14,638 nucleotides of DNA, taken from NCBI GenBank assembly GCA_900540005.1, contig UQEM01000052.1, positions 1-14,638 of the forward strand, in the 5' to 3' direction. Source of the stretch: an uncultured Ruminococcus sp. (GTDB taxonomy: Bacteria > Bacillota > Clostridia > Oscillospirales > Ruminococcaceae). The notes under the pieces are model-generated. The model did no database searches. It saw nothing but the letters and a program-made list of their open reading frames with translations, and was not told the origin of the DNA. This document shows, piece by piece, positions 1 to 14,638 of the stretch (position 1 is the stretch's first letter; each line of letters begins with the position of its first letter). The position numbers and the translations under genes were made by a program.

Positions 1-50
1 GATCTACACAAGGCTATTCGTCGGCAGCGTCAGATGTGTATAAGAGACAG
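1..50 (+). other. Illumina P5/i5/Nextera Read 1 adapter (contamination)
   Basis: This is not genomic DNA. Bases 1-9 (GATCTACAC) are the end of the Illumina P5 primer, 10-17 (AAGGCTAT) sit at the i5 index position and match the Nextera XT index I know as S520, 18-31 (TCGTCGGCAGCGTC) are the Read 1 overhang, and 32-50 (AGATGTGTATAAGAGACAG) are the 19-bp Tn5 mosaic end. Read in frame it gives the well-known contaminant peptide MCIRDR at the N-terminus of the first open frame. Confidence 0.98.
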
Positions 51-63: not shown

Positions 64-2343
64 ATGAAATCAAAATTCTTAAAGAAAGCGGGTGCAGCGC
101 TTCTTTCAGCTACTATGCTGACTAACACAGCGGCTTTCAGTACATTTATTTCAGACGCAGCCGACTCAACCGAAACAAGGTATGAGTTTGAAGACGCTGA
201 GATCACCGGCACAGGCAGCATCAAGACTGACGATGCAGAAGCTTCCGGCGGCGCTTACTACTTCCTTGAGGGCAACTCTGATACAGCAACTCTTAAAGTT
301 ACGGTCGAGACCACAGGAATGTATGAGCTTTCTATCCGCTATGCAGCAGCTTACGGCGAAAAGATCCAGAACCTCTATGTAAACGGAGTAGATCAGGGTC
401 AGATCTCTTTCACATCCAAGACATGGGCAGACGCTAACTGCGGCAGCGTAAAGCTCAACGCAGGTGAAAACGAGATCATGATAAAGGGAAACTGGGGTTG
501 GACAAACTTTGACTATCTCACAGTAAAGCCTGCAACTCTCCCCGATATCAAAGTAACTCAGCCCTACACCTGCGATACAAAGGCTACTATTGAAACACAG
601 AACCTCATGTCATACCTTTCTGAGGTTTACGGAAATAACATTATCTCAGGTCAGCAGGAAATCTATATGTACGGTCCTCACGACTTTGAGTACGAATTTG
701 AATACCTCAAGGACACAACAGGTCACTACCCCGCTATCCGCGGATTTGACTACCTCAATGAGGCAAATATCCTCGGCTACGGCACTGAGGACGGCACTAC
801 CGACAGAATCATTGACTGGGTAAAGAACAGAAACGGTATTGCTACAGCTTCATGGCACCTCACAGTTCCCGTTGACTTTACAAATTATAATGTAGGCGAC
901 AGTGTTACTTATGAGAATGCAACCTACTCCTGCAAATGGGATACAGACAAGACCAAGGGCAACACAGCAACCAACTTCAATACAGCAAATGTTGTAAAGG
1001 AAGGCACAAAGGAAAACGAGTATTATCTGGCAGCTCTTGAGGAACTTTCCACATACCTCCTCAAGCTTCAGGACGCTAATGTTCCGCTTATCTTCCGTCC
1101 TCTCCACGAGGCTGAAGGCTCGGGCGGCGAAACAGGCTCATGGTTCTGGTGGGGCGCAGCAGGTTCAGAAGTATATAAGGAGATCTGGAAGCTCACCTAC
1201 AAGACACTCACAGAAGATTACGGCATTCACAACATCATCTGGGAGTGGAACAGTTATAACTACGAGAATTCCGCTAACTGGTATCCGGGCGATGACTATG
1301 TAGACATCATCGGCTACGATAAGTACAACTGCACAGTTTACCTTGAAGAAAACAACTGGCAGCCTTCACTTGTTCACAATGATTCCGCTATCAGCTCTAC
1401 TTTCTACGGAATCATGCAGAAATACGGCAGCGCAAAAATGGTATCAATGGCTGAGAACGACTCATTCTCAACAGTTGACAACCTCATGTCAGAAAAAGCA
1501 GGCTGGCTCTACTTCTGTACATGGTACGACGGCGATCAGGAAAGCAATCACTTCCTTACAAACCCGCTCTTCAACACAAAGGAAGACACAATCGCTATGT
1601 ACCAGAGCGATTACTGCATCACTCTTGACGAGCTTCCCGCTGACCTCTACACAAAGAACGGCGAAGTAACAAGAACTACTGCCGCAACAACTACCACTAC
1701 AACTACAACGGCTGATCCCAGCGTAACAACTACGACGACAACTACCGGCTTCACATTTGAGCAGAAGTCTTACAAGATCGACCTCCCCGAGGACAGAACA
1801 GACACAGATCTCGTATTTGAGATTGAAGGCGCTCCCACAGCTTCTATCGGTGGCGGAGTAGGCTACGGCACAAACGCTAAGGACTGGACTAACCTTGAAT
1901 GGAGCGGAAATGCTGACGCTGACGGCAAGCTCACAATAAAGGTCGACATCTCCGAGATCCCGAGCACAATAACGACCGCAGAGATCCAGATCTGGTGGTC
2001 AAATGTTTGGGACAGCACAAAGGAAGCTGCTGACGATGCTGACTGCGATCTCGTAAAGTCATCATTTGTAAAGCGCAGCAGCGGCACAGTTCTCTACGGT
2101 GACGCAAACTGTGATGACAAGGTTGACCTTTCAGATGCTGTTATGCTCCTTCAGGCTATCGCAAACGAAGATAAGTACGGTGTTAACGGCACAAGCGAGG
2201 ATCACATCACAGCTCAGGGTCTTATTAATGGTGACTGTGCTGATCCCGGCAGCGGAGTTACTGCGCTGGACGCACTCTCCATTCAGAAATATATTGCTGA
2301 AATATGCACACTTCCTGTATATACAGATAATTCTACTAAATAG
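64..2343 (+). CDS. Cellulosomal GH26 beta-mannanase with CBM35 and dockerin
   Basis: Secreted, probably cellulosome-bound endo-1,4-beta-mannanase of 759 residues. Order: signal peptide (about 1-33, KFLKK then a hydrophobic core); CBM35-like module (about 39-156, starting YEFEDAE and ending in a Trp/Tyr-rich strand); GH26 catalytic domain (about 180-525); Thr-rich linker (537-562); a second beta-sandwich module (about 563-670); and a type I dockerin (about 676-752) with calcium loops starting GDANCDDKVD and GDCADPGSGV. GH26 landmarks are FRPLHEAEG with the expected acid/base Glu349, the WFWWG stretch after it, and VSMAENDS with the expected nucleophile Glu464. The start at 64 has a good ribosome site; the upstream in-frame ATG at 34 is adapter. 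Mannan or glucomannan hydrolysis is inferred from family. The second module resembles carbohydrate-binding domains of R. flavefaciens cellulosomal proteins, but I cannot place it in a numbered CBM family. Confidence 0.93.
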   Translation: MKSKFLKKAGAALLSATMLTNTAAFSTFISDAADSTETRYEFEDAEITGTGSIKTDDAEASGGAYYFLEGNSDTATLKVTVETTGMYELSIRYAAAYGEKIQNLYVNGVDQGQISFTSKTWADANCGSVKLNAGENEIMIKGNWGWTNFDYLTVKPATLPDIKVTQPYTCDTKATIETQNLMSYLSEVYGNNIISGQQEIYMYGPHDFEYEFEYLKDTTGHYPAIRGFDYLNEANILGYGTEDGTTDRIIDWVKNRNGIATASWHLTVPVDFTNYNVGDSVTYENATYSCKWDTDKTKGNTATNFNTANVVKEGTKENEYYLAALEELSTYLLKLQDANVPLIFRPLHEAEGSGGETGSWFWWGAAGSEVYKEIWKLTYKTLTEDYGIHNIIWEWNSYNYENSANWYPGDDYVDIIGYDKYNCTVYLEENNWQPSLVHNDSAISSTFYGIMQKYGSAKMVSMAENDSFSTVDNLMSEKAGWLYFCTWYDGDQESNHFLTNPLFNTKEDTIAMYQSDYCITLDELPADLYTKNGEVTRTTAATTTTTTTTADPSVTTTTTTTGFTFEQKSYKIDLPEDRTDTDLVFEIEGAPTASIGGGVGYGTNAKDWTNLEWSGNADADGKLTIKVDISEIPSTITTAEIQIWWSNVWDSTKEAADDADCDLVKSSFVKRSSGTVLYGDANCDDKVDLSDAVMLLQAIANEDKYGVNGTSEDHITAQGLINGDCADPGSGVTALDALSIQKYIAEICTLPVYTDNSTK
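1672..1749 (+). repeat. ACN-codon repeat encoding the Thr-rich linker
   Basis: A low-complexity run of ACA/ACT/ACC/ACG codons inside the mannanase gene, broken once by the residues ADPSV. It encodes two Thr runs, the flexible and probably glycosylated linker between the catalytic domain and the C-terminal modules. Codon variety suggests selection for Thr rather than simple slippage. Confidence 0.8.
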
Positions 2344-4466: not shown

Positions 4467-4522
4467 CTAATCATAGAAAAACGGATCATTCCAAAAAATC
4501 TATTTTAAGGAGTTTGATTACT

Positions 4523-7500
4523 ATGAAAAAAGCAAGTTTACAAAAAATGCTTGCAGGCTTTACGGCAATATGCTCAGTTGCCTCTGCTATGCCTGTTTCA
4601 AATGTTACAACAGCAGCCGCTGCCTCAACAAATGTTGTTTACGGCGACGCAAACTGTGACAGTAATGTTGATATCTCTGATGCTGTGCTCATACTTCAAT
4701 CCATATCAAAGCCGAGCGTTTATGGTCTTGAAGGTACAGACGAAAGCAGGATCACGGCTGAAGGTCTGGATAATGCCGATGTATACGAAAGAGGCAGCGG
4801 AATAACCGCAAAGGACGCGCTTTCTATTCAAAAATATCTCGTTGGACTCTGTTCTCTCCCCGAATCTTATCAAGACGGCTCTGTCGACCCCGAAACCGAC
4901 TCTGTTTATATCCACCTTAACAATATATCTATTTCTGTTGAGGGAGACAGCAACGGCTATGCAGAGGTAACCGGCTCGACCGTGACCATTAACCACTCAG
5001 GCATATACTACGTTGACGGTACTCTTGATGACGGACAGATAAACGTAAATATTGCAGACGAGACGGCTGATCCTGATACCGTTAAGATCTTCCTCAACGG
5101 CACAAGTATCACAGGCAAGTCTGATTCTCCATTTGTTGTAACAAATGCGGAGAAAACTTCCATAAATCTCGTTGACGGCACAACAAACACTATCTCCGAC
5201 GGCGATACGGCTTACACAAGCGGCAATGCTGTAATCGAAGCCAAGGACGATCTCACCATAAAGGGCGGCGACAACGGAACAGGCAAGCTTATCGTTACCG
5301 CTAACACTCAGGACGGTATCGTCTGCAACAACGACCTCAAGATCAACAATGCAGATGTTTCCGTAACTACGCTCAATTCCACATCAGGAAGCAAAACAAA
5401 CGGCATAAACGGTAAGACATCAGTTGATATCAAGGGAACTTCTGTAGTAACTGTTGACGCTACAAGTGACGGTATCAAGTCCACAAACGGCAATGTTCTT
5501 ATTGAGAGCGGCAGCGTTACTGTCAAGGCCGGTGCAGACGCTGTACAGTCCGGCACAACGATCGATATTTCGGGCGGAAGTCTTGTTGCAGGCGGCGACA
5601 GAGGTCTCACGGCAGCGTCAGGTGTAAACATCACAGGCGGTACTGTGATTGCAACAGCTACAGACAATCAGGCTGAGGGCGTTTCTTCAGAAAATCAGGC
5701 AACTCTGCTCCTTAACTGCATAGACTCCTCTGAGAGCGACGCTTGCTGGAAGAAGGCAAACAGCATTTCAGTCGGCGATGTAAGTGCAAGCTTTTCAAAG
5801 AAGTATAAATACGTTCTTATTTCTGACGCTTCTATCAAGACAGGAAGCTCGTACAGCCTCACAAATGCCTCAACAGGCGCAATTGTTACACATTCAAATG
5901 ATACTGCAACTGATTTCAGCGTTACAGACTCGGTAACAACATTTGAAACAGTTAATCCCGCCGGAAAGAGCGGTTCTTCCACTACTGATCCTACAACTGA
6001 AGGCTATACAATAACTCTTTCGGGTACTTCAATACAGACCAATGCTCCTGCTGATGTTGCAACTGTAAGCGGCGGAGTCATCACTATCATCAAAGAGGGC
6101 GTATTCACCGTAACAGGTACGGCTTCAGAGGGACAGATCGTTGTTGACGTTGATAAAACAGCTTATCCTTCGGCAGTCGTTGAGCTTGATCTTGCAGGAA
6201 TGAGTCTTACAAACACCTCAACTTCTCCTATTTATGTTGCATCGATCGGTGATGAGGTTCAGATCGTTTCCAAAAATGGCACAGAGAACACTATCTCTGA
6301 CGGCACAAACTACACAAATGCTGATGACGATCAGGGCGCGATATACTCCAAGGACGACATAAAGTTCAAGGGTAAGGGAACTCTCACGGTAAACGGCAAT
6401 GCTGCTGACGCGATCGTTTCCAAGGACGACCTGAGAATTTACAACGGCACACTCATCGTAAACGCTGTTGATGACGGAATCCGCGGCAAGGACAGCGTAA
6501 GGATCGGAAATCCCGATGATTTAGCAGTTGAGGGCGCATACTATAACCTCAGCGTAACTGTCAAGACAAACAACGGCTCTACGGGCGGTGACGGGATCAA
6601 GTCCACAAACAGCACCGACAGCGGCAAGGGATACGTTGAAATAAACGGCGGTACGGTAAATATCAACTCCTACTCTGACGGTATTCAGGGCGAACAGTCC
6701 GTTACGATAAACGGCGGCGATATCACAATTTACACATACCAAGGCGGCGACTACACCGGCAGCGGCTCATCTTCAGGCGGCAGCTGGGGAGGTATGGGAG
6801 GTATGCAGGACGGCAACTCCAACAAGACCGACATCTCAGCAAAGGGTATCAAGGCTGTAGGAATCTATGACACAGACGGAACAACATGGCAGAGCGTAGG
6901 CGATATCACAATAAACGGCGGTACGTTCAACATCGACTCCTCTGACGACTCCGTTCACTGCGGCGGCGATATGAACATTTACGGCGGTATCTTCACAGTT
7001 GCTACGGCTGATGACGGATTCCATGCAGACCACAACCTCACGATCGGCAAAACTGCTGCAAATACATTTGACGACGTTCAGATCTTCATTTCAAAGTGCT
7101 ATGAAGGCGTAGAAGCTCCTATAATCAACCAGAACAGCGGAACTGTTTATGTTATCTCCACTGATGACGGCTACAACGCAAGTGACGGATCAGACAGCTC
7201 AAGCAATCCCGGCGGAGGCCCCGGACAGGGCTGGGGTCAGGGTTCGACTTCTTCAAGCTCAGACATCGCAATGAACATCAACGGCGGCTTTGTTTGTGTA
7301 AACTCCGCTAACGGCGACCACGATGCATTCGACTCAAACGGCAACATCGACCTCAACGGCGGCTATATCTGCGCAAACGGTCAGGAACCCCTTGACTGCG
7401 GCGACAACGGCAGTACTATCAACTACAACGGCACAAGCGTTATCACCATGACCGCAGGCAACACAAACCTCAGTTCGCGCTACAGCTTCGTTGACAACTC

Positions 7501-7720
7501 GGGCAATGTTATTGTTTCGTTCCTCTCTGCAAGCGGCTCTCCCGGTCAGAACTGCACCAACTGCACGGCTCAGTCTGGCGGAACAGTTTCGGGCAGCTCA
7601 ACAGTACTCTCGCAGTCAGGCGATTACGCTGTAACGATAGGCGGAACACTTTCAGGCGCTACCCAGATAACATCATCAAGCTCAGGCGGCGGCAGCGGAC
7701 GTCCCGGACAAAACTGGTGA
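4523..7720 (+). CDS. Cellulosomal beta-helix protein, N-terminal dockerin, two Cthe_2159-like domains
   Basis: A secreted 1065-residue protein with no catalytic domain that I recognise. Order: signal peptide (about 1-35); type I dockerin right after it (about 38-112, loops GDANCDSNVD and a second ending ITAKDALSIQKYL); first repeat-rich beta domain (about 127-473); short Ser/Thr linker (about 478-493); second, longer beta domain (about 495-1045). Both halves fit the Cthe_2159 carbohydrate-binding family (PF14262, DUF4353), right-handed beta-helix proteins whose Clostridium thermocellum founder binds cellulose and polygalacturonate. Visible family signs are the repeated INGG strands and turns such as DDGIRG, SDGIQG, DDGFHAD and DDGYNAS. 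Gly-rich loops (GGSWGGMGGM; GGGPGQGWGQG) interrupt the second domain, and the tail ends GRPGQNW. The ATG at 4523 is used because AAGGAG (4507-4512) is ten bases upstream; a TTG at 4514 is too close. Likely role: cellulosome-bound polysaccharide binding. Confidence 0.87.
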   Translation: MKKASLQKMLAGFTAICSVASAMPVSNVTTAAAASTNVVYGDANCDSNVDISDAVLILQSISKPSVYGLEGTDESRITAEGLDNADVYERGSGITAKDALSIQKYLVGLCSLPESYQDGSVDPETDSVYIHLNNISISVEGDSNGYAEVTGSTVTINHSGIYYVDGTLDDGQINVNIADETADPDTVKIFLNGTSITGKSDSPFVVTNAEKTSINLVDGTTNTISDGDTAYTSGNAVIEAKDDLTIKGGDNGTGKLIVTANTQDGIVCNNDLKINNADVSVTTLNSTSGSKTNGINGKTSVDIKGTSVVTVDATSDGIKSTNGNVLIESGSVTVKAGADAVQSGTTIDISGGSLVAGGDRGLTAASGVNITGGTVIATATDNQAEGVSSENQATLLLNCIDSSESDACWKKANSISVGDVSASFSKKYKYVLISDASIKTGSSYSLTNASTGAIVTHSNDTATDFSVTDSVTTFETVNPAGKSGSSTTDPTTEGYTITLSGTSIQTNAPADVATVSGGVITIIKEGVFTVTGTASEGQIVVDVDKTAYPSAVVELDLAGMSLTNTSTSPIYVASIGDEVQIVSKNGTENTISDGTNYTNADDDQGAIYSKDDIKFKGKGTLTVNGNAADAIVSKDDLRIYNGTLIVNAVDDGIRGKDSVRIGNPDDLAVEGAYYNLSVTVKTNNGSTGGDGIKSTNSTDSGKGYVEINGGTVNINSYSDGIQGEQSVTINGGDITIYTYQGGDYTGSGSSSGGSWGGMGGMQDGNSNKTDISAKGIKAVGIYDTDGTTWQSVGDITINGGTFNIDSSDDSVHCGGDMNIYGGIFTVATADDGFHADHNLTIGKTAANTFDDVQIFISKCYEGVEAPIINQNSGTVYVISTDDGYNASDGSDSSSNPGGGPGQGWGQGSTSSSSDIAMNINGGFVCVNSANGDHDAFDSNGNIDLNGGYICANGQEPLDCGDNGSTINYNGTSVITMTAGNTNLSSRYSFVDNSGNVIVSFLSASGSPGQNCTNCTAQSGGTVSGSSTVLSQSGDYAVTIGGTLSGATQITSSSSGGGSGRPGQNW

Positions 7721-9922: not shown

Positions 9923-12304
9923 ATGTCTGATAATTTCCAGAACGGTCAGGACAACGGCTTTGAGCCGCAGAACCCTGACAACAGCAATTTCGCGCCCAAC
10001 AACGGCGCGCCTTCACAGGATACAAACTATAACAACGGCTATCAGAATTTCAGCGGAAACGACTTCGACAGCGTTTCGGGAGTTGAAAACGTAACAAAGG
10101 CTCACAAGGGCAAAAAGGCTGCTATAATCGCCGGTATTGCCGCAGTTGTTGTAGTCGGCGGCTCAGTTACGGCTTATGCTTGCTCCGATTATGTAAAGAA
10201 CAAGGTAAAGCTCACGACCATGAAGCCCGAAAACTACTACGCATGGGTCTGCGAGGAAAACGCTGATGATTTTGCAAAGTCTATCAGCGAAATGTACAAA
10301 AAAGGTCTTGACAATTACGACAAGGGCAGCAGCGGCTCTGTCTATGTAAACTACGACATCACTTCTGACGCAAAGGACGCTTTCCTCACAGAGATCTTCG
10401 GTGAGGAAAATTACACTGACGCTGATGACGATGAGTCAAAGGCTGTAATTGACGTTGTCAATAACATCGAATCCATCAAAGTCGGAGCTGACTTCAGTCA
10501 GGATAAGACTCTCGCAAGCTACAGCGCTTACGCTCAGCTCAACGGAGACAACATTATCTCTGCCGAAGCTGTTCAGGATCTGGACGCTTTCTACTTCTTC
10601 CTGCGTTCGCCTGAACTTACAGAAAAGTGGCTCGGAATCGATAGGGGCGGCGCTGTTGATGATAGCGCTATGACCGACTATCTCGAGATCTACCGCGAAG
10701 TGCTCGCTGATCCTTCAAAGTATCTCTCACCCGAGGACTTTGAGACGGAGATCAACCGCTATGTAGGCGTATGGGGCGAGACAATAAAGGACGTTGAGCT
10801 TGAAAAGAGCGAAGAAGTGGACATCTGCGATATCTCAGTAAAGTACACTATCGCAGAAATCGAGATCGACGATAAGTTTACCGACAAGCTTGCAGTAAAT
10901 ATGCTCCGCGAACTCAAAAATGACGATATCGCCAAGAAGCTTGTCACAGATAAGTTAGGTCTCATGGAAAAGAGCGACTACAAAGACTCTATCCAGAACA
11001 TGATTGACTCTCTCAAGGACAAACTCAGTGATAATGACTACTATGATGATTCTGACGCTGTCACATTAAAGACATACATTGATGCAACAGGCAAGATCAG
11101 AGGTTTCTCTGCTGAGGACGATGAGAACGAAGTTTTTGCTGTTTTCGGAAAAGACAGCGATGATATACGCGGTGAACTCTACTCCAAGACAGGCGACGAT
11201 AAGGATTTTTCCGTTGAACTCACAGCCAAGGAAGAAGGCAATAGCAAGTACAGCGGTCAGATCGACATGGAGATTCCTCACGAAGAATATGACGATGATA
11301 CATGGGAGACCACAACTACCATGCAGTCATACACACTCACATTCAAGGACTTCGAGATCGTAAACGAAGATAAGGGATACTTCAACGCAGATGTTTCCAT
11401 TATCGTTCCCGACATGGATCCTATCGATATTGACTTCAAATCCTCCGGCAAGGAGCAGGAAGTTTCTTACAATATAAGCTTTGAGGGCAAGGACTTTGGT
11501 ACTGTAACTCTCGGATTCTCATCTGAGGACGGCGCTAAGGTTGAAAAGCCTGACGAGAGTAATGCCTACATCATCAATGCTGATGAAATTGATTCGTTCG
11601 ACATCAACGACTATATCACCAGAGACAACGTTGAAAGCTGGGCTAAGAATGTACTTACAAAGATCGGTTTCAGCGATGATCTTGCAGATGATGCAGCAAA
11701 GTCGTTCACAGACGATCTTTACTCCGAACTTGACGGTGAGGACGACTACTATGACGATTGGTACTATGATGATGACGACTTGGATTACGATGACGATGAT
11801 GACTTGGATTATGATGACAGCGATTACAAGTCATCAAGCGACTATGACGGCGTAACTCCCGAGGACGGAGAGGCTTACCTCTACATTTCCGATGCGGAAT
11901 TCGACTCGTACTACACAGGTTATTATGATGATTATCTTGCAGGAAATGCAAAGGTTGCAAAGATCACAGGAAACGGCGAGTACACTGTCGGCGTAACCAC
12001 TGATTCAGAGCTTTTCAGAGAATACTGGCAGGCTTCCACACCCAAGGGATTCCACAACATTGAGATCAAGGCTTCCGGAATCGAGGGCGCAGAAGATTCA
12101 GTTCTTACAGTAAAATCTATAAAGATAAACGGTAAGGAACAGGAGATCAAGCAGCAGCCTGTAAGCATATACAACTACGAGGACAGCATTGACGTTGAGC
12201 TCTTCTACGAAGGATACGAAGAGGACGCTGTACTGGACGTTTCTTCAATTGACGAGTGGACTGATTTTGAAGTAACATTTGAGTTAAGCGGTCTCCCCGA
12301 ATAA
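9923..12304 (+). CDS. Single-pass membrane protein with acidic segment, function unknown
   Basis: I do not recognise a named family for this 793-residue protein. It starts with an Asn/Gln/Asp-rich, Lys-poor cytoplasmic segment (1-58), then KAHKGKK and a membrane segment (about 66-86), so the large remainder should be outside. Residues about 90-600 are acidic, mixed alpha/beta sequence with many Tyr and Asp. Residues 605-643 form an extreme Asp/Tyr run with a tandem DDDDLDY unit. The last part (about 647-793), starting GEAYLYISDAEF and including KVAKITGNGEYTVGV and SIKINGK, resembles a beta-sandwich module recurrent in Ruminococcus extracellular enzymes (inference from memory of the pattern). 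The Asp run may bind calcium or act as a spacer in the wall. It has its own promoter and terminator. TAYAC at 83-87 looks like a lipobox but is too far from the N-terminus. Confidence 0.85.
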   Translation: MSDNFQNGQDNGFEPQNPDNSNFAPNNGAPSQDTNYNNGYQNFSGNDFDSVSGVENVTKAHKGKKAAIIAGIAAVVVVGGSVTAYACSDYVKNKVKLTTMKPENYYAWVCEENADDFAKSISEMYKKGLDNYDKGSSGSVYVNYDITSDAKDAFLTEIFGEENYTDADDDESKAVIDVVNNIESIKVGADFSQDKTLASYSAYAQLNGDNIISAEAVQDLDAFYFFLRSPELTEKWLGIDRGGAVDDSAMTDYLEIYREVLADPSKYLSPEDFETEINRYVGVWGETIKDVELEKSEEVDICDISVKYTIAEIEIDDKFTDKLAVNMLRELKNDDIAKKLVTDKLGLMEKSDYKDSIQNMIDSLKDKLSDNDYYDDSDAVTLKTYIDATGKIRGFSAEDDENEVFAVFGKDSDDIRGELYSKTGDDKDFSVELTAKEEGNSKYSGQIDMEIPHEEYDDDTWETTTTMQSYTLTFKDFEIVNEDKGYFNADVSIIVPDMDPIDIDFKSSGKEQEVSYNISFEGKDFGTVTLGFSSEDGAKVEKPDESNAYIINADEIDSFDINDYITRDNVESWAKNVLTKIGFSDDLADDAAKSFTDDLYSELDGEDDYYDDWYYDDDDLDYDDDDDLDYDDSDYKSSSDYDGVTPEDGEAYLYISDAEFDSYYTGYYDDYLAGNAKVAKITGNGEYTVGVTTDSELFREYWQASTPKGFHNIEIKASGIEGAEDSVLTVKSIKINGKEQEIKQQPVSIYNYEDSIDVELFYEGYEEDAVLDVSSIDEWTDFEVTFELSGLPE
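11768..11812 (+). repeat. Imperfect tandem repeat encoding Asp-rich units
   Basis: A 21-base unit (11768-11788, DDDDLDY) is followed by a 24-base unit (11789-11812, DDDDDLDY) that differs by one extra Asp codon and a few third-position changes. It looks like a recent in-frame duplication inside the acidic segment of the membrane protein. Confidence 0.7.
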
Positions 12305-14611: not shown

Positions 14612-14638
14612 CTGTCTCTTATACACATCTGACGCTGC
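14612..14638 (-). other. Nextera Read 1 adapter, reverse complement (contamination)
   Basis: CTGTCTCTTATACACATCT (14612-14630) is the Tn5 mosaic end and GACGCTGC (14631-14638) the start of the Read 1 overhang in reverse. It repeats bases 24-50 inverted. Both contig ends therefore carry the same Read 1 type of adapter rather than one Read 1 and one Read 2. Confidence 0.97.

Follow-up and report, generated by a model that had tools for sequence, protein, structure and literature searches.

A conserved, probably non-enzymatic cellulosome protein of Ruminococcus with an N-terminal dockerin and two Cthe_2159-type beta-helices

Introduction

What would a cellulosome do with a protein that opens with a dockerin and continues as two long beta-helices? 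The question is raised by a single gene on a 14,638-nucleotide contig (UQEM01000052.1 of assembly GCA_900540005.1, the whole of which is called the window here) from an uncultured Ruminococcus sp., a relative of Ruminococcus flavefaciens to judge by homologues; the gene encodes, in this order, a signal peptide, a dockerin and two domains of the Cthe_2159 family (PF14262), referred to as D1 and D2 (Table 1). In this article I argue, with a probability of roughly 60%, that the product would be a secreted cellulosome subunit that binds plant cell wall polysaccharide in a Ca2+-dependent manner while docked to the scaffold, and that it performs no catalysis. The direct basis is the gene, its modules, the predicted folds, conservation and distribution and, from print, the detection of a protein of the same layout in a secretome. 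The importance is modest, in that a conserved and probably non-enzymatic cellulosome part is given a name, and two leads come with it: a set of invariant Asp, Glu and His residues in an unmodelled segment of D2, and the D1 type of helix, common to CotH kinases that carry dockerins.

Modules of the protein

An earlier sequence-only reading had placed the dockerin directly after a signal-peptide-like start, followed by two beta-helix domains of a polysaccharide-binding family, and both statements were borne out, the former by the sequence, Pfam and a structure match, the latter by PF14262 (373.4 bits against a cut-off of 25.8, over two stretches of the 1065-amino-acid (aa) protein), by the model and by matches to the Protein Data Bank (PDB) entries 4peu and 4phb. 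Structure prediction, run as a check on that reading, returned a predicted beta-helix in both halves, and in structure comparison both resemble 4peu and 4phb, in agreement with the domain matches. A phmmer search of the PDB with the whole protein found 4peu at E 9.4e-28, the best stretch lying in D2, and D1 alone finds it at E 4.1e-17. The known relative, Cthe_2159 of Clostridium thermocellum (4peu, 4phb), is a 313-residue chain with one helix, whereas D2, which spans aa 498-1050 in all, extends past it (about aa 806-1050). Both helices are rich in acids (105 Asp and Glu against 41 Lys and Arg over aa 128-1050). A post-hoc motif, Asp-x-hydrophobic, stands at 24 places where shuffled sequences average 12.1; the maximum over 1000 shuffles is also 24, and I give it no weight. 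The signal peptide was called from the sequence by eye.

Table 1. Features of the gene and, for context, of a GH26 gene upstream in the window (pLDDT, predicted local distance difference test; GH, glycoside hydrolase; CBM, carbohydrate-binding module)
Feature	Position	Strand	Basis
Whole gene: signal peptide - dockerin - D1 - D2, 1065 aa	4523..7720	+	sequence, Pfam, predicted structure
Shine-Dalgarno AAGGAG, 10 bases 5' of the ATG at 4523	4507..4512	+	sequence
Signal peptide, about aa 1-33 (KK...hydrophobic...AAAA)	4523..4621	+	read from sequence; low pLDDT in model
N-terminal dockerin, aa 36-113, R. flavefaciens group-1b-like (I51, S52, V55, Q59, Q103)	4628..4861	+	sequence and structure matches
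D1, Cthe_2159-type beta-helix, aa 128-482; subfamily in common with CotH-fused proteins	4904..5968	+	Pfam, model, tree
D2 first half, aa 498-765; PF14262 and 4peu/4phb matches extend to about aa 805-832	6014..6817	+	
Gly-rich disordered loop, aa 745-765	6755..6817	+	pLDDT <50
D2 second half, aa 766-1050: unannotated continuation of the Cthe_2159-like helix, and C-terminal cap	6818..7672	+	conservation, structure comparison
Second Gly-rich disordered loop, aa 892-912	7196..7258	+	pLDDT <50
GH26 mannanase with CBM35, Cbm74-like module and C-terminal group-1-like dockerin	64..2343	+	Pfam, alignment

Dockerin_1 (PF00404) reaches only 20.5 bits over aa 40-106 of the whole protein, below its cut-off of 22.9, and 24.1 bits on the first 200 aa; judged by sequence, however, the identity of the dockerin is not in doubt because it matches Doc1b of Ruminococcus flavefaciens (5m2s chain B) at E 7.7e-22 (phmmer, PDB), and fold and sequence alike fit Doc1a/Doc1b of group 1. 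In 5m2s this group-1b dockerin, from strain FD-1, sits at the C-terminus of a GH9 enzyme, whereas here it is N-terminal and no enzyme is recognised, and two positions differ (K54 and L95 are both Val in the window dockerin). The contacts described for group-1 dockerins are Ile-39, Ser-40, Val-43, Gln-47, Gln-83/91 and Leu-87/95, the Leu of helix 3 being present 'with some exceptions' (PMC5429695); the window dockerin has the residues named in Table 1 at these places, with V107 at the last, and thus follows the group-1 pattern (non-polar 11, Val 15, Gln-47, Gln-83/91 and no bulky Phe at the Ser-40 place). Across 70 aligned proteins, window included, both key Gln residues and an Ile, Met, Leu or Val at position 11 are kept in all 70, and position 15 is Val, Ile or Leu in 58. 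Group-1 dockerins bind the ScaA1-2 and ScaB1-4 cohesins (PMC5301203) and, to go by these key residues, the window dockerin should bind cohesins of the ScaA/ScaB type.

Proposed function

The partner cohesin, the Ca2+ ladder, the ligand and the absence of catalysis are what I infer in the following proposal. The N-terminal group-1 dockerin would dock to ScaA/ScaB-type cohesins of the scaffold, from which the two helices, anchored at their N-terminal end, would project and bind polysaccharide of the plant wall, pectin (polygalacturonate) and cellulose being the likeliest ligands. Ca2+ coordinated by a row of Asp, Glu and His side chains would mediate the binding, and no bond would be cut. Ca2+-dependent binding appears most likely because the structure of Cthe_2159 is calcium-bound, by the title of 4peu, and both cellulose and polygalacturonic acid are reported as ligands of the protein (PMC6712302). 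The unusual end of the dockerin also would make sense since lipoprotein relatives appear to anchor the helix at the same place: the dockerin may be a stand-in for the N-terminal lipid anchor of these dockerin-less proteins, with the same helix gripped by the same end. CttA of R. flavefaciens, given as CBM-CBM-X-Doc in Table 1 of PMC5301203, likewise combines two binding modules and a dockerin with no enzyme module listed; its dockerin, however, is C-terminal with an X module, belongs to group 4a and binds ScaE, whereas that of the window is N-terminal, of group 1 and expected to bind ScaA/ScaB.

Distribution and origin of the layout

The layout is not new, being already in print and common in relatives, and the suggestion in the sequence-only reading that it was an undescribed architecture has to be given up. 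Table 3 of a 2020 metaproteome (PMC7480376) lists, for a Ruminococcus sp. ERACg_42 described as close to R. flavefaciens ATCC 19208, a 'Dockerin_I-Cthe_2159-Cthe_2159' protein that has a signal peptide and was detected with 14 spectra in a consortium grown on bagasse. By this table listing its module order is the same as here. N-terminal dockerins as such had also been described, 19 of them in R. flavefaciens FD-1, and are reported to be as active as C-terminal ones. The ERACg_42 protein is labelled a 'putative scaffoldin', which looks like a mislabel because no cohesin appears in its listing; the same label was rejected for the window protein, in which Pfam at E 0.01 finds no cohesin family. 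Within the portions consulted of the literature naming Cthe_2159, no pairing with a dockerin appears besides PMC7480376, and the portions consulted on FD-1, 007 and other ruminococcal cellulosomes, including the rows listed of PMC5301203 Table 1, do not mention the protein.

An architecture search likewise found the layout to be common. A search of the protein database gave 1070 homologues among 7991 scored candidates; the 120 listed of these cover 86-100% of the query and are 53-70% identical to the window protein, the closest one 98%. A dockerin is present, and always at the N-terminus only, in 120 of the 121 proteins made up of these and the window protein, according to a profile that was itself derived from them; the one protein without it is a partial record. 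Of 79 loci on genome contigs, 45 carry D1 and D2 in tandem in one frame, and the profile detects a dockerin in 42 of these 45; of the other three (L039, L040 and L044), Pfam finds one in L040 (32.6 bits) and, below the cut-off, in L044 (19.8 bits), and Dockerin_1 matches 73 of 84 N-terminal pieces (the window and 83 frames) at E 0.01. The layout is ordinary for R. flavefaciens, with one such protein, encoded by an open frame of 1084-1142 aa that PF14262 matches twice, in each of 11 isolate genomes (FD-1, ATCC 19208 and 007c among them), a set chosen through homologous loci, ten of them already tandem genes, rather than as an unbiased survey of the species.

The two helices do not look like recent copies of one another. 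In a FastTree tree of 159 PF14262 core segments, 46 tandem D1, 8 single D1 and 8 CotH-fused segments form one clade (support 0.967), and 46 tandem D2 and 16 single D2 segments form another (support 1.0), with 0.654 for the midpoint split between the two sides. Since D1 and D2 fall in separate clades, a recent duplication of one domain was rejected, and the tandem is best read as a fusion of two PF14262 subfamilies. Related loci have other layouts as well: dockerin-D2 proteins of some 700-800 aa, dockerin-D1 proteins of some 500 aa, dockerin-D1-CotH frames of some 850-1030 aa and dockerin-less PF14262 paralogues with a lipobox (L013(-), L027(-), L058, L060, L061 and L070). The lipoboxes were read by eye, as were the dockerins that the profile missed, except where Pfam had been scanned.

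The fusions to CotH comprise L042 (4767-7688, minus strand) and L072, in both of which Pfam finds the N-terminal dockerin and CotH, and L073 and L075-L079, assigned by similarity to these two. Like the window protein they combine an N-terminal dockerin with a helix of the D1 subfamily, and they carry the CotH kinase domain where the window protein has D2. The L042 fusion gene lies divergently beside a tandem gene. Two further PF14262 genes adjoin tandem genes: that of the dockerin-less lipoprotein at L013 (4413-7603, minus strand), with VTC confirmed beside it, and one cut by the contig end at L007 (1-1573, minus strand), with DUF4956 confirmed beside it. The role of CotH kinases in cellulosomes has been described as not clear yet (PMC12484212).

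Conserved residues and other readings

Several observations weigh against the proposal of a Ca2+-dependent wall-binding subunit. Most of the invariant residues of D2 (18 of 25 polar ones) fall in its C-terminal half, the part absent from the Cthe_2159 chain, so that plain binding by homology does not explain them, and the invariant acids are not clearly phased on the helix: 6 of 18 of them, and 8 of 42 of the other acids, precede a strand by two residues, in what is a weak test of register. In the dockerin, over the same 70 proteins, the Val-43 place is Thr or Ala in 12, the Ser-40 place is Ser in only 20 (Ala in 34, Asn in 15, Gly in 1) and the Leu-95 place is Leu in 29 and Ala, Ile, Ser or Val in 41. 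PF14262 and CotH share one open frame in 10 of the 11 R. flavefaciens genomes, and it is the D1 subfamily that is fused to CotH, while all 11 have a short PF14262 frame with a VTC gene on the same strand, 1.4-1.7 kb away; together these hint at a role other than plant wall binding. The literature yielded no binding data for this subfamily of helices.

The residues of the D2 C-terminal half deserve the closest look. D808, D809, H812, D830, D831, H834, E861, E864, D881, D882, D934, D937, N939 and D958 are invariant in 47 of 47 D2 sequences, and in a further set of 118 proteins each of these 14 is kept in 117 or in all, with one gap, at D958. Even in 28 distant sequences (27-40% identity) 13 Asp, Glu and His positions of this half are kept in at least 23, N939 in all 28 and D836 in 21, while 19 other Asp, Glu or His positions are kept in at most 16. 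Nothing in the searches names the segment: it has no Foldseek structure match at E 0.001 and no Pfam or NCBIfam model match, and the last 266 aa have no sequence match in the PDB at E 10. As to known beta-helix enzymes, these negatives reach no further than the families listed in the structure comparisons. It may be a metal ladder, as predicted here, or an unrecognised active site. The sequence-only reading saw no catalytic domain, and this stands insofar as Pfam and NCBIfam recognise no enzyme family, with no polysaccharide lyase family at E 0.01 and no NCBIfam model matching the protein at all; because of the deeply invariant set, however, the statement is not secure. A hidden lyase, hydrolase or esterase could have its active site built from these very residues, with D1 and the PF14262 half of D2 holding the substrate, although I regard such an enzyme as unlikely. 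The same set is too specific for a protein that would serve the cellulosome mainly as a structural spacer or to store calcium, with no specific ligand, a role that the long acid-rich helices and Gly-rich loops would suit and that the identity of the listed homologues over nearly their full length also speaks against; I consider it very improbable.

The CotH fusions and the VTC neighbours bear on a different thought, namely that the protein acts on polysaccharide of the cell's own surface or matrix, as the dockerin-tagged part of a set of CotH, polyphosphate polymerase (VTC), DUF4956, DUF4832 and PF14262 proteins, reminiscent of the accessory genes that go with exopolysaccharide loci of other Firmicutes, and that it is possibly a target or partner of a CotH kinase. 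CotH, a polyphosphate polymerase, DUF4956 and DUF4832 are accessory genes contiguous with Gram-positive pel clusters (PMC7112168, where the portion consulted does not name PF14262), and six DUF4832 proteins were found, of which all four that were read (L110-L113) have a C-terminal dockerin, three by profile and L110 by eye. However, PelG occurs in none of the 11 genomes, which leaves Pel itself without a supported link, DUF4832 occurs in only 6 of them, the ten window proteins scanned have no CotH, VTC or DUF4956 match, and the bagasse-grown secretome that contains the same-layout ERACg_42 protein is rich in cellulosome parts (PMC7480376). A matrix role seems doubtful to me, in the same measure as the hidden enzyme. 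A bolder combination, which I would call a long shot, takes the D2 subfamily for a beta-helix enzyme that has gone unrecognised, or for a metal-loaded receptor, with its working site in the unannotated C-terminal half, and supposes that R. flavefaciens has given dockerins to the secreted members of a matrix-polysaccharide set (PF14262 proteins, CotH kinases, DUF4832 proteins), placing own-surface machinery and the fibre-degrading complex on one scaffold.

Surroundings of the gene

A conserved gene cluster around the gene was sought and rejected: when nine window neighbours were compared with the 79 loci by tblastn (E 1e-10), most matches were to the GH26 query and covered its dockerin only. 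The remaining matches were GH26 over half its length at L033, GH25 at L009 and L072, and a histidine kinase or response regulator at L023, L029 and L072; clustering added a GH25-like frame at L005. The dockerin of the window's own GH26 protein fits the group-1 pattern (DLSDAVMLLQ), and Table 4 of PMC7480376 includes an ERACg_42 enzyme given as CBM35-GH26-dockerin. Further downstream, at 9923-12304 on the plus strand, lies a gene for a 793-aa protein that neither Pfam nor NCBIfam matches at E 0.01 and in which one N-terminal membrane segment and Asp/Tyr-rich stretches can be seen by eye. Exact copies of a 19-base motif, 0 of which would be expected by chance, stand at 32-50 (plus strand) and 14612-14630 (minus strand); I take the motif to be the Nextera/Tn5 mosaic end, so that the contig seems to have library adapter at either end. 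The residues 'MCIRDR' with which the first open reading frame begins would then be an artefact, and the GH26 gene would start at the ATG at position 64.
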